Shown: in pieces, positions 6,040-21,095 of the stretch
How the letters are laid out: every line of letters begins with the position of its first letter
Position numbering within the stretch: position 1 is the stretch's first letter
From: Microbacterium allomyrinae
Lineage (GTDB): Bacteria; Actinomycetota; Actinomycetes; Actinomycetales; Microbacteriaceae
NCBI RefSeq assembly: GCF_020682705.1
Contig: NZ_JAGTTN010000005.1
Coordinates: forward strand, 62,001 to 126,000
DNA length: 64,000 nt
Reading direction: 5' to 3'
Position numbers and translations under genes: made by a program
The notes under the pieces: generated by a model
What the model was told of the DNA's origin: nothing
What the model saw: only the letters and a program-made list of their open reading frames with translations
The model's database searches: none

Positions 6040-6059
6040 GGGCGTCGCCGGGTTCGCCT

Positions 6060-6141
6060 GCAGAACTCCACGGGTCAGCGGCTGACACGCCCGGATGCCG
6101 GGCTTCGGCGCTCTGCACGGCCGAGTCTGGTGGAGTTCTGC
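6060..6141. repeat. Palindromic unit A1 (82 bp), distal side of the 6.1-7.0 kb gene
   Basis: Arms GCAGAACTCCAC (6060-6071) and GTGGAGTTCTGC (6130-6141) are perfect inverse complements 58 bp apart. Inside are two small dyads (GTCAGC/GCTGAC and GCCCGG/CCGGGC). The gene that starts at 6986 ends inside the unit, so its last roughly 22 codons are repeat-derived. Unit A2 at 7092-7173 has exactly the same length and arm spacing. Confidence 0.85.
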
Positions 6142-6986
6142 GGGCGAGGGCGCCCGACTATCGCTTTCATCGTGGCCAGCACTTCGTCATATCGGTAGTA
6201 GATGGCCTCGGCGAGTGGGCGCACGGTGGTATATCCCAGGGCTGCGGCTGCGAGATCGCGGCGGCGGTCGCGCTTCTGCGCGGGCCAGCCTTCGTGGAAG
6301 GCCTTGCTGTCGCATTCGACGATCAGCCACCCGTCGACCACGAAGTCCACCCTTCCAACCCCTGCGAGTTCGACCTGTACATCGACTCTGCAGCCGAGTC
6401 CGCGCAGCAGCAATCGCATCAGAGTCTCCGCCCCGGATTCGCTGCGACGATCGAGCAGCTGCCGCAGCGACCCGTAACGATGGGGAAGGCGGGCGAAGAT
6501 CTCAGCGATCTCGGGCTCATCGACGAGCCCGAGATGCCAGGCGCTGTCAAGTGTCGCCACGGCGTCGCGCACGGCCAGACAACGGCAGGCCTGCGTCATC
6601 GCTTCGGTCAGATCGGCCGCGAGCGCGGCGCGCTCCCGCGTCGAGTGGCGCCAGTGCGCCTTCACCCCCGTGGGTCGCGGAGGGAGTCGCGTCGTCCCGG
6701 GTGTGAACTGCAGGTGTAGTCCGGCCGGCTTGTGACGAACGAAGACTCCGAGCGCCGACAGCAGGGACACGCAGTCGAGCCTTCCGCCGAGTCGTCCCGC
6801 GGCGAGCAGGTCGGCGTCCAGATCACGCCGGACGTACCGACCGTTGCGCAGCCGTAGCAGCTCACCGTCCGCCACCAGGCACTGGACCCGATGCCGTCCG
6901 AGGCCCAGCTCGGCCAGCGCCGTGAGGCTCAGGAAGGTCGTCGCCAATATGCGGCGCGCCGCGTCGTGTGTCTGGGCTGTGGCCAT
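6075..6986 (-). CDS. AbiEi-type winged-helix / DUF559 (VSR-like) nuclease-fold protein
   Basis: A 303-aa protein of unknown function. Residues about 10-60 look like the N-terminal winged helix found in AbiEi-type antitoxins. The C-terminal part (about 180-280) has the DUF559/very-short-patch-repair-like PD-(D/E)XK pattern: SESGAE, then RVDFVVD with Asp214, VECDSK with Glu224 and Lys228, and KRDRRRD. No AbiEii-type toxin partner is adjacent. The last 22 residues, from about PQNSTR, are encoded by palindromic unit A1. No clear ribosome-binding site precedes the ATG. It stands alone between two repeat units. A DNA-binding or nicking activity is possible, but no substrate can be named. Confidence 0.8.
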   Translation of the reverse strand: MATAQTHDAARRILATTFLSLTALAELGLGRHRVQCLVADGELLRLRNGRYVRRDLDADLLAAGRLGGRLDCVSLLSALGVFVRHKPAGLHLQFTPGTTRLPPRPTGVKAHWRHSTRERAALAADLTEAMTQACRCLAVRDAVATLDSAWHLGLVDEPEIAEIFARLPHRYGSLRQLLDRRSESGAETLMRLLLRGLGCRVDVQVELAGVGRVDFVVDGWLIVECDSKAFHEGWPAQKRDRRRDLAAAALGYTTVRPLAEAIYYRYDEVLATMKAIVGRPRPQNSTRLGRAERRSPASGRVSR

Positions 6987-7091
6987 ATGTCCATCGGACC
7001 GCGCAGGCGCGAGGGCACGGCGACGCCAACGCTCCTCTGGGGAGAACTCGACCCGAGGCTGCCCTCTGGAGCCGGCTCAGGACGAGGATCC

Positions 7092-7173
7092 GCGAAACTC
7101 CACGAATCTGGTGCGAAACGCCGGGTCGGCGGTGCCTCGATCCACGGAACCCTCCGGTTCCGTGGAGTTTCGC
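7092..7173. repeat. Palindromic unit A2 (82 bp), upstream side of the 6.1-7.0 kb gene
   Basis: Arms GCGAAACTCCAC (7092-7103) and GTGGAGTTTCGC (7162-7173), perfect and 58 bp apart as in A1. The two bases that differ from A1 (GA for AG) change in both arms, so pairing is preserved. A perfect 10-bp hairpin with loop CTCC lies inside at 7142-7165 and could also stop transcription. Orientation appears inverted relative to A1. Confidence 0.85.
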
Positions 7174-19477: not shown

Positions 19478-19544
19478 CCCCGGGGCGGGTTTGTCACGTC
19501 GGGCCGGGGTTTTCCCGCCCCGCGGTGCGGCATGCGTCCCGGGG
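19478..19544. repeat. Palindromic unit B1 (67 bp)
   Basis: CCCCGGGG (19478-19485) at the left end and TCCCGGGG (19537-19544) at the right, with a G+C hairpin around TTTT centred near 19511. About 91 per cent identical to B2 over 75 bp (seven mismatches). Confidence 0.85.
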
Positions 19545-19562
19545 CGCATGCGCGGCCTGTGT

Positions 19563-19604
19563 CGGTTGCGGTTGCGGGTGCGGTTGCGGGTGCGGTTGAG
19601 GTGA
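19563..19604. repeat. 12-bp tandem repeat between units B1 and B2
   Basis: CGGTTGCGGGTG occurs twice exactly (19569-19592), preceded by a half copy and followed by the variant CGGTTGAGGTGA. Confidence 0.8.
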
Positions 19605-19651
19605 CGGTGACGGGCGAACGGCTGGGCCAGGTGATCGAGCAGCGTCGGGTG

Positions 19652-19718
19652 CCCCGGGGCCGGTTTGTCACGGCGGGGCGGGCTTTTCCCGCCCCGCGGT
19701 GCCGCATGCACCCCGGGG
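19652..19718. repeat. Palindromic unit B2 (67 bp)
   Basis: CCCCGGGG at 19652-19659 and 19711-19718; centre hairpin GCGGGGCGGG/CCCGCCCCGC (perfect 10 bp, loop CTTTT) centred at 19685. Both CCCCGGGG centres are 29.5 bp from the hairpin centre. It ends 38 bp past the stop of the leftward gene. Confidence 0.88.
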
Positions 19719-19756
19719 CGCATGCGATCGATCGTGGACGCGTCCGCGGATGGGAG

Positions 19757-20719
19757 TCAGCGACGGGGTGGACGCACGCCGAAATGCGCCAGGCGTCGAC
19801 CCAGTTCTTCGGGGGTGGTGATGTGCTCCCACTGCCATCGGACGAGCTTGAGGCCAGTCACGCCACGGATCCAATCCTCACGGGCCTTCTCGTCGTCGAG
19901 TGCCTGTTGCGGGGTGCGTCCAGCGAGGAACTTGGGATCGGAGTACTTTCCCTTGCCATCGAACTCCGCAAGAGATTCGACATCGTCCAGACCCAGATCG
20001 ACGTAGTAGTTCCCGCCGTTCGGGGCGCGGACGGCTACCTGCAGACGGGGGATGTCGAAGCCGAGTTGAACGAGCCGGACCCGGCTGATGCTCTCGCCGG
20101 GCAGCTCGGCACGTCCGTCGCCGAATGACAATGCTCGTCGCGCGCGGGATGGTCCGTGCGAAGCGCGCGTCGAGATCACCAGGGCTTTGTCGCGAAGAAC
20201 TCCAGCCGCGTTCTCGTCGTATTTCCGCTCATGCACCGACACGGAACGCAGAGCCGCATCGATGGCAGACACGGAGGTCTCGCGGCGTTGCGTTCGCGCG
20301 ACATCCGCGAGGGTGCGCTCGATCGAGGTGCACAACATGCCATCCACCTCGACGATCTCGTCGTCACGAAGCGGCCCGCGATGACGCACGACACCCGCGA
20401 GCGCACCGCCTCGTTCCCGCCGTGCAGTTGTGTGCACCCCGCTGACGTCTGCGAAGACGACCGGCAGACCGTGCTGGGCGAGGGCTGTGAGGTTCGAGAA
20501 GATGTGGACGTTTCTCGATGATCGCTCGACGGCTCGTGCTCGCAACCTCATCCGCTCCTCGGGTGTGAGAGTCGCCCATTCGTCGGTGAACACGCAGATT
20601 CCTGGCCTCACCATTGTCAGCACCTTCCGCTCACGCAGCTCTGCTGCCTTCCGCCAGCCGATGCCACGCTCGGCGAGATCCTGTCGGTCCAGGAGCGTAC
20701 TGGGCGCGAGAATGTCCAT
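19757..20719 (-). CDS. AbiEi-type winged-helix / DUF559-like nuclease-fold protein (second copy)
   Basis: A 320-aa protein (322 if the GTG at 20725 is used; the ATG was preferred because GGGAG then lies nine bases away instead of three). The N-terminal part (about 10-50) resembles an AbiEi winged helix. The C-terminal domain has a PD-(D/E)XK-like pattern: ELPGES, YYVDLGL, AEFDGKGKY (E-x-D-x-K) and EKAREDWI. Same architecture as the 6.1-7.0 kb gene but only distant in sequence. No toxin partner adjoins it. Two palindromic units lie on each side. Function unknown; repeat-linked DNA nicking or host regulation are both speculative. Confidence 0.8.
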   Translation of the reverse strand: MDILAPSTLLDRQDLAERGIGWRKAAELRERKVLTMVRPGICVFTDEWATLTPEERMRLRARAVERSSRNVHIFSNLTALAQHGLPVVFADVSGVHTTARRERGGALAGVVRHRGPLRDDEIVEVDGMLCTSIERTLADVARTQRRETSVSAIDAALRSVSVHERKYDENAAGVLRDKALVISTRASHGPSRARRALSFGDGRAELPGESISRVRLVQLGFDIPRLQVAVRAPNGGNYYVDLGLDDVESLAEFDGKGKYSDPKFLAGRTPQQALDDEKAREDWIRGVTGLKLVRWQWEHITTPEELGRRLAHFGVRPPRR

Positions 20720-20852
20720 CGCCACAGACTCCCGCGCTCCCTCGCCTGTGCTTCGCCCGTGCGCTCGATCTGCCGACTAGTGGCTCCCACCGCGAGTTGG
20801 GGAGGAGCGGTCCGGTGTCGCTCGGCACGGGGTTGCCGCCGGGCGAGAACGC

Positions 20853-20919
20853 CCCCGGGGCGGCTCCGACACCGCGGGGCGGGAATATCCCGTCCCGAGG
20901 TGGTTCCGCCGCCCCGGGG
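20853..20919. repeat. Palindromic unit B3 (67 bp)
   Basis: CCCCGGGG at 20853-20860 and 20912-20919; centre dyad of 15-bp arms (two mismatches) around ATA at 20885-20887. End-to-centre distance 29.5 bp on both sides, as in B2 and B4. Confidence 0.88.
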
Positions 20920-20931
20920 CGGTGCAGACGT

Positions 20932-21021
20932 GGCGGATGTTGCGGGGGCGGCGGATGCTGCGGGGCCGGCGGATGCTGCGGGCCCGGCGGATGCAGCGGG
21001 GCCGGCGGATGCAGCGGGACC
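20932..21021. repeat. 18-bp tandem repeat, five copies, between units B3 and B4
   Basis: Five consecutive 18-bp copies of GGCGGATGCTGCGGGGCC with small variants and a broken sixth. Open frames through it give GPAASA-type hexapeptides, but no gene is supported. A likely length-variable locus. Confidence 0.88.
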
Positions 21022-21028
21022 GGCGATG

Positions 21029-21095
21029 CCCCGGGACGCTTCTCGCACCTCGGGGCGGGAATATCCCGCCCCGAGGTGGCTCTTGCGCCCCGGGG
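21029..21095. repeat. Palindromic unit B4 (67 bp)
   Basis: CCCCGGGA at 21029-21036 and CCCCGGGG at 21088-21095; between them a perfect 15-bp dyad (21046-21060 with 21064-21078) around ATA. Spacing identical to the other three units. Confidence 0.88.

Follow-up and report, generated by a model that had tools for sequence, protein, structure and literature searches.

The window analysed here is a 64,000-nt stretch of Microbacterium allomyrinae DNA, in which a candidate nuclease gene is bracketed by two units with inverted arms. Its immediate neighbours, according to Pfam, are an adenosine deaminase gene (add) and an NAD-dependent epimerase gene (the SDR gene). The locus comprises the following features, given in window positions:

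6060 to 6141, no strand: left unit, with inverted 12-bp arms at 6060-6071 and 6130-6141 and AACTC/GAGTT cores spanning 74 bp
6075 to 6986, minus strand: candidate nuclease gene (303 aa), an AbiEi-like N-terminal part followed by a Vsr/EDxHD-type nuclease, with its 3' end within the left unit
6141 to 6440, minus strand: predicted nuclease domain (residues 183-282), with invariant residues and best matches to I-Bth0305I and Vsr
6450 to 6935, minus strand: AbiEi-antitoxin-like fold (residues 18-179), matching 6y8q (Foldseek E=1e-4, VIA Z 7.3)
6690 to 6704, minus strand: putative specificity loop (residues 95-99), a loop in the model whose residues track arm bases
7092 to 7173, no strand: right unit, with arms at 7092-7103 and 7162-7173 and cores spanning 74 bp

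The Pfam matches of the window protein, MTES_1575 (E=1e-6) and DUF559 (E=0.003), both fall under the curated cut-off, and PADLOC gave a weak AbiEi match (E=4e-4). Among 47 homologs, matches at Pfam E<=0.1 were obtained for MTES_1575 in 46, DUF559 in 45 and AbiEi_4 in 25. The AlphaFold2 model is confident (pLDDT 92.7, pTM 0.87). The top Foldseek match of residues 18-179 is the AbiEi antitoxin 6y8q (E=1e-4), with a VIA Z of 7.3 over 155 residues (rmsd 4.3), a range that alone could reflect a common arrangement. Residues 183-282 correspond to the homing endonuclease I-Bth0305I (VIA Z 13.5, 96 residues, rmsd 2.5) and also to 3hrl (Z 12.5) and Vsr (Z 11.9). Residues E187, D214, E224, D226 and H231 are invariant in 47/47 aligned homologs, in an alignment that excludes L108 for its stop codon, many others for a flagged stop or a partial match, and L106 and L107 for neither of these reasons. 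The Pfam and fold matches bear out the AbiEi/DUF559 (Vsr-like) kind proposed for the gene in the preliminary description, and the invariant residues and the modelled fold make its product a candidate site-specific nuclease, predicted to cleave DNA. The coding sequence of the C-terminal tail, from about residue 282 on, falls within the left unit, and this tail is poorly predicted. This is the only copy of the gene in the genome at E<=0.001. Proteins of this type are common here: at E<=1e-15, 269 of the 295 genus genomes have a match, as do 95 of 150 genomes from a family-level sample that includes two of this genus.

Both units measure 82 bp with an exact 12+58+12 layout, confirming the coordinates and spacing first described. 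The left-unit arms are GCAGAACTCCAC (6060-6071) and GTGGAGTTCTGC (6130-6141), and those of the right unit are GCGAAACTCCAC (7092-7103) and GTGGAGTTTCGC (7162-7173). The right unit starts 105 bp upstream of the start codon of the nuclease gene, the left unit overlaps the 3' end of the gene, and the inverted match of the left unit extends to 6054-6147, corresponding to 94 bp. With at most one mismatch, GCRRAACTCCAC is found 6 times in the window, where 1.1 would be expected, and none of 100 shuffles gave as many. Two arm bases differ between the left and the right unit and the change is mirrored in the partner arm of each. This difference, already pointed out in the preliminary description, is real and seen in both flanking units, but it is not a rule, as mixed-arm units occur in the same genome (GCAG/GCGA at C1:795502 and GCGA/GCAA at C14:20208). 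The proposal that each unit carries a small hairpin on its outer side did not hold, the outer half folding more stably in only 23 of 52 gene-flanking units.

Elsewhere in the window, a second AbiEi-like gene (19757-20725, minus strand) has two 67-bp units on each side (19478-21095), which by inspection share no sequence with the 82-bp units, as had been claimed. When up to 2 mismatches are allowed, the central motif of the 67-bp unit is found again at other places in this genome, some of them clustered (C1:1245127-1245579, C1:1198233-1198582 and C13:36102-36346), with none in the reversed control. This gene and its units are possibly a second nuclease/repeat pair.

The anatomy of the 82-bp units across genomes was profiled in 57 non-redundant units of the 74-bp class, the 73- and 75-bp units being dropped from the complementarity and AT profiles. 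Agreement between the arms exceeds expectation over roughly positions -6 to +11 relative to the AACTC core, whose own agreement is built in because the unit scan requires it. Further inward, starting at about position 12, complementarity stays close to the expected level apart from a slight excess around positions 25-32, so that only arms of about 16 bp match within a unit. Compared with shuffles, the interior has only a slight folding advantage (mean z -0.35, sem 0.11), the value for the whole unit being -2.19. Since interior complementarity is near expectation, the unit is not one long hairpin, and we rejected a long-hairpin or RNA reading. Among the 36 units of the AACTCCAC family, 22 have matching outer 4 nt in their two arms, where random pairing would give 16 (p=0.002), and the inner 4 nt are uncoupled (7/36 against 6.7 expected). 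The earlier claim that pairing was selected thus draws weak support from the outer nucleotides and none from the inner ones, with a barely pairing interior and mixed-arm units in this genome; the arm agreement is better explained if both arms, in all copies, are sites for the same protein.

The AACTC...GAGTT span is fixed at 73-75 bp, and the AT content between the cores peaks near positions 12, 22.5, 32.5, 42.5, 52.5 and 63. This period of about 10 bp is phase-locked to the arms in two unit sets with some common members, 59 units from the examined loci and 63 from the genus-wide unit list (0/2000 and 0/500 shuffles), and it reappears when the AC, GG, TG and TC arm families are taken one by one (17, 14, 13 and 11 units, all with the same arm type on both sides). 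The core distance and the AT period together place the cores seven helical turns apart on double-stranded DNA. Among eight adjacent unit pairs in G051, G204 and G236, some of which are the same site in different species, six are spaced by 94-95 bp and two by 103-106 bp. Because the left-unit match covers 94 bp and abutting units are mostly 94-95 bp apart, the full element probably measures about 94 bp. In G051, two arm families lie side by side at C1:96303/96398, C5:20949/21043, C23:122672/122766 and C23:156603/156697, 94-95 bp or nine helical turns apart, as if inserted beside each other or laid down paired.

The units accompany the gene well beyond this genome. Units on both sides with a shared arm of at least 9 nt were found at 23 of the 30 closest homologs and 7 of 11 further genus homologs (picked by hand, 44-57% identical to the window protein), against 0 of 180 control pseudo-loci. 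A family-level search detected them at 11 of 29 loci (10/28 in other genera, L117 being of the same genus) and did not detect them at the other 18. At 8 nt or more the figures were 25/30, 8/11 and 12/29, with 1/180 in the control. Arm sequence differs between gene lineages: in 4 of the 7 further genus homologs the arms lack the AACTC core (for example GTGAAAGCGCCGGGC and CGTGCACAACGTCG), and others retain it (for example GTTCAAAACTCAGGAGA).

The 30 best-matching loci, to which the closest-homolog flanking test was also confined, were compared at the position after add. The gene is there in 18 and absent in 12. Within the DNA examined, the scan found at least one unit in 17 of the 18 gene-bearing loci and at least two in 14; the remaining locus, in G175, has one adjacent unit in the genus-wide list. 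No unit was found in the 12 gene-free loci, where the SDR gene comes next in 10 and not in 2, again within the DNA examined. Units being absent wherever the gene is absent, gene and units come and go together at this site, so that the check proposed in the preliminary description, whether the 1.1-kb segment between add and the SDR gene is present or absent as a block, supports a block. In none of the 30 loci did we see what would have spoken against it, namely palindromes without the gene or terminators kept for the neighbours.

We also compared pairs of relatives, some of which share members. In six pairs with different arms the flanking DNA is 83-92% identical and the proteins are 56-67% identical. 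In three of four same-arm pairs the genes are about as similar as the flanks, with protein identities of 87, 88 and 79%, and in the fourth (L025/L026) the gene has diverged too (67% against 84-88% in the flanks). The different-arm pairs show the pattern that replacement of whole blocks would give, the alternative being fast change in place.

In addition to bracketing the gene, the units are dispersed. The strict two-arm pattern occurs 7 times in the whole genome (4.02 Mb), always with 81-82 bp, and the looser core AACTCC-N58..66-GGAGTT 13 times, always spanning 73-75, with 0 in the reversed control of either search. A separate unit scan detected none, either in 640 kb of Markov sequence or in 186 kb of real loci that had been reversed. 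Across the genus, AACTCC-N61..63-GGAGTT is found in 191 of 295 genomes, with up to 65 per genome, the reversed control giving at most 2 in any of the 295. The strict ACGG-type pattern is found in 17 of the 295, with two spacing outliers of 93-94 bp in G045 and G049. Some matches are regarded as false positives: C1:1222150 in this genome (G000), one of the 13 loose-core matches, which looks like a coding coincidence and, like G136:C3:325021 and G138:C1:437591, falls with a span of 75 bp in an apparently conserved coding stretch shared by several genomes; G204 2655289 and 2835178, likely coding matches in the close-clade scan; and some spacers containing GTTGACGT, picked up by the loose pattern. 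Pattern matches containing GTTGACGT (G236:C1:1168630, G204:C1:645157, G051:C23:87166, G085:C1:1042434 and G106:C7:726830) lie in spacers resembling promoters or operators, which have an arm-like end in common and are present in several species.

Unit number goes with the presence of a close homolog of the protein. The median is 13 units (AACTCC-N61..63-GGAGTT) in genomes with a close homolog (E<=1e-80, n=68) and 1 in those with a weak one or none (E>1e-43 or no match, n=112), with a U-test p=2e-16 that ignores kinship among genomes. This comparison covers 180 of the 295 genomes, the other 115, among them G183 (3.5e-45), being left out, and six match-free genomes were assigned to the weak group by their absence from the homolog table. 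Relics, other cores or another protein must be invoked for the 17 of 112 weak- or no-homolog genomes that hold at least 5 units, and for the 6 of 68 close-homolog genomes with zero units of this core.

The dispersed units, located with a crude ORF call, occur in tandem, convergent and divergent spacers, many of them near gene ends, and some in ORFs. For two solo units of this genome we compared the site in related loci, retaining those where both flanking genes could be placed. The unit at C14:169859 sits at an operon junction, without a nuclease gene; among 23 of 30 placed loci it is present in 2 (this genome and G013), the genes overlap or lie at most 5 bp apart in 19, and 2 have other spacers. 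The unit at C1:848276 is present in 1 of 14 placed loci out of 30 (this genome), where 12 spacers measure -2 to 26 bp and one of similar length has no clear unit. At these two sites the solo units resemble inserted segments of about 100 bp. Within a close clade, comparing sites in pairs showed an exact-core unit at the corresponding position in 18 of 28 cases, and most other cases had a spacer about as long, so that units can also be long-lived; a search there for precise insertion junctions met mostly shared old units and resolved no junction or target duplication.

Other arrangements were seen in single genomes. In G010, the same unit lies at two places within apparent coding sequence (L097 and L098; C1:693977 and 938899), and unit plus about 246 bp around it are 97% identical. 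In G204 (C1:2843651-2846516, within the 20-kb stretch L239) a 2.7-kb segment lies between two units and contains a large ORF resembling, by eye, a Lon-type protease, and the relative G236 has a single unit (C1:2608927, L206), which we read as a possible unit-bounded gain or loss of other genes. In G051, whose own gene has TCAA-type arms, 9 of 21 units are TGCA-type, the type of the genes of its relatives, and 9 of 21 are TCA-type, two of them beside its own gene, a mixture expected if the specificity of the gene was replaced and the old units stayed.

A homing-type gene drive is a possible, rather doubtful explanation of these patterns. The nuclease would cut units or unit-free sites and the block would be copied into the break by homologous recombination, solo units being targets or scars that do not move by themselves. 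The nearest fold, I-Bth0305I, would suit it, as would the apparent replacement of blocks of different specificity at one locus and the contrast between the unit-bounded 2.7 kb of one relative and the single unit of another. Against it, the gene-free loci after add hold no unit (0/12), the flanking units are intact rather than a split site, and a solo unit stands at an operon junction without the gene.

Next, we compared arm bases 6-10 with each variable column of the protein, with overall identity regressed out, in 33 of 36 candidate gene loci (the scan gave no arms for L048, L103 and L117). The strongest of 246 columns were 99, 96, 134 and 98 (r 0.42, 0.42, 0.36 and 0.33), the 99th percentile of the permuted maximum being 0.30. 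The observed maximum and the best five-residue window were reached by 0 of 2000 permutations, a result that overstates certainty, with an optimistic p-value, because permutation breaks kinship. Three of the top four columns fall in one loop, which is independent support for the reading of the arms. Residue 99 is S in 20/20 proteins with C6-T7 arms, and T in 7/9 with C6-A7 and 2/2 with A6-T7 arms. At residue 96, the two TTCG-type proteins have M, 4/4 TGCA-type (one of them divergent) and 4/5 TCCA/TCCG-type proteins have R, and TCAA/TCAG/TCAT-type proteins have N or V; P is found there in 7/7 ACGG-type and 0/2 ACCG-type proteins, as well as in four proteins of other types. The outer arm bases showed no significant link to residues in these 33 loci (p=0.08). 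This tracking of arm bases by residues 96-99 indicates that the protein probably reads the arms.

Alternatively, the protein could be mainly a regulator or DNA-architecture factor, the units being operators or loop sites, the solo units selected regulatory sites and the nuclease domain secondary. AbiEi proteins are reported to bind inverted repeats and bend DNA (PMC7319586), one flanking unit lies just upstream of the gene start, and the phased AT of a unit seven turns long would suit a bent operator. We consider this explanation unlikely, given that the catalytic residues are invariant in 47/47 homologs, that units lie on both sides of the gene with the downstream one overlapping the stop, and that solo units occupy tandem, convergent and divergent spacers and some ORFs (crude ORF call) and differ in presence between relatives. 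That the units are usual bidirectional terminators, or RNA hairpins of the REP type, kept for the genes next to them, as inverted arms and the many units in spacers near gene ends might suggest, is highly improbable and already contradicted by the almost unpaired interior, by a search of the region that gave no terminator-like site and no Rfam family at gathering score, by units in divergent and tandem spacers too, by their absence after add when the nuclease gene is absent (0/12) and by arm bases that track nuclease residues.

On balance, we think it fairly probable that the gene encodes an AbiEi/Vsr-type nuclease served by dispersed recognition units of its own, as one case of a partnership spread across the family that includes arm reading, cutting and block movement. 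Each protein molecule would read one arm, with loop residues 95-99 of the AbiEi-like part reading the family-specific bases beside the AACTC core, and two or more molecules would bind the two arms of a unit, which at a distance of seven turns would face the same side of a bent or wrapped double helix. This two-arm binding is proposed from our data together with reports that AbiEi-family proteins bind inverted repeats at their own promoter, the S. agalactiae protein bending DNA (PMC7319586), and that the I-Bth0305I family is able to dimerise on a target of nearly 60 bp (PMC3943268). The Vsr-like domains would then cut or nick within or beside the unit, and binding at both bracketing units would probably autoregulate the gene, as AbiEi antitoxins do at operators. 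Cutting would give the units and the unit-gene-unit block the means to copy or move, so that solo units would accumulate as insertions of about 94-100 bp in spacers and blocks of other specificity could replace the resident one.

Several observations weigh against the dedicated-nuclease proposal. The flanking unit pairs are intact, whereas a homing insertion normally destroys its recognition site, and an active nuclease would need to tolerate many chromosomal sites. Units of the close clade are mostly shared and not freshly moved (18/28), 17 of 112 weak- or no-homolog genomes hold at least 5 units and 6 of 68 close-homolog genomes lack this core, the same-arm pair L025/L026 diverged in the gene too, and matched units went undetected at 18 of 29 family-level loci. 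On the protein side, P96 also accompanies four proteins of other arm types and is absent in both ACCG-type proteins, the outer arm bases lack a significant residue link, and the VIA Z to AbiEi could reflect a common arrangement, though AbiEi is the top Foldseek match.

We would give about even chances to the wider view that this is a new class of mobile repeat, in which a Vsr-type nuclease with an AbiEi-like reader of two arms, seven turns apart on wrapped DNA, spreads units of about 94 bp, a few loop residues and the arm bases change together, and many mutually blind families coexist and replace one another across this bacterial family. Nothing that our search of the open-access literature brought up, subscription literature being mostly outside its scope, linked DUF559, AbiEi or MTES_1575 proteins to flanking or dispersed repeats or gave a function for these proteins. 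The genomic patterns point to a repeat-spreading partnership between the gene of a probable DNA-cutting protein and scattered units, of which we found no description there. The correspondence between residues and arms would supply a DNA-recognition code that is direct and can be tested, the phasing over seven turns hints at a nuclease that works on wrapped DNA, and the partnership, if true, would add to RAYTs a second way for bacteria to gain dispersed palindromic repeats.

Among known systems, the protein shares the MTES_1575-type Vsr REase domain (Pfam PF18741), matched at E<=0.1 by 46 of the 47 homologs. That domain was named from a large multi-domain HEPN/helicase protein, with no repeats mentioned in the accessible part of the source (PMC3710099). 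With the AbiEi antitoxin of type IV toxin-antitoxin systems it shares the AbiEi-like wHTH of the N-terminal part. The antitoxin is reported to occupy two inverted repeats of its promoter, 23 bp each and 3 bp apart, and to bend the DNA (PMC7319586), whereas here the cores span 74 bp, the protein is fused to a nuclease and the units are dispersed. No cognate AbiEii nucleotidyltransferase toxin was found by Pfam among the two immediate neighbours. Like the EDxHD homing endonuclease I-Bth0305I and Vsr-fold nucleases, the protein has the fold (Z 13.5) and the E...D...ExD...H residues; unlike I-Bth0305I, it has an AbiEi-like N-terminal part and intact, multi-copy candidate sites in the same genome, and no intron or intein was seen here. 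A homing gene splits its own site and leaves it intact in the gene-free allele; with 0 of 12 gene-free loci holding a unit, the gene here is no homing gene of the classical sort, provided that the unit is what it targets.

The closest organisation is that of REPtrons, described as RAYT genes bracketed by REP/TIR repeats that are also dispersed, in several families each with its own gene, where the flanking repeats may overlap the ends of the RAYT gene (PMC3733652). Here, too, a nuclease-type gene is bracketed by repeats that are also dispersed. The parts differ: RAYTs are HUH tyrosine transposases, and the enzyme here is Vsr/EDxHD-type, with no HUH transposase family among its Pfam (MTES_1575, DUF559 and AbiEi) or fold (Vsr-type and AbiEi) matches. 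REPs are hairpins of 20-40 bp with GTAG/CGTC tags, unlike these two-arm units with arms seven turns apart and an almost unpaired interior, where the constant arm core is AACTC and no self-pairing hairpin with a GTAG or CGTC tag was found. Having neither an HUH enzyme nor such hairpins, the system is not a REPtron member, and in our best reading it belongs with the repeat-plus-dedicated-nuclease kind, organised like RAYT/REP and built from unrelated parts.
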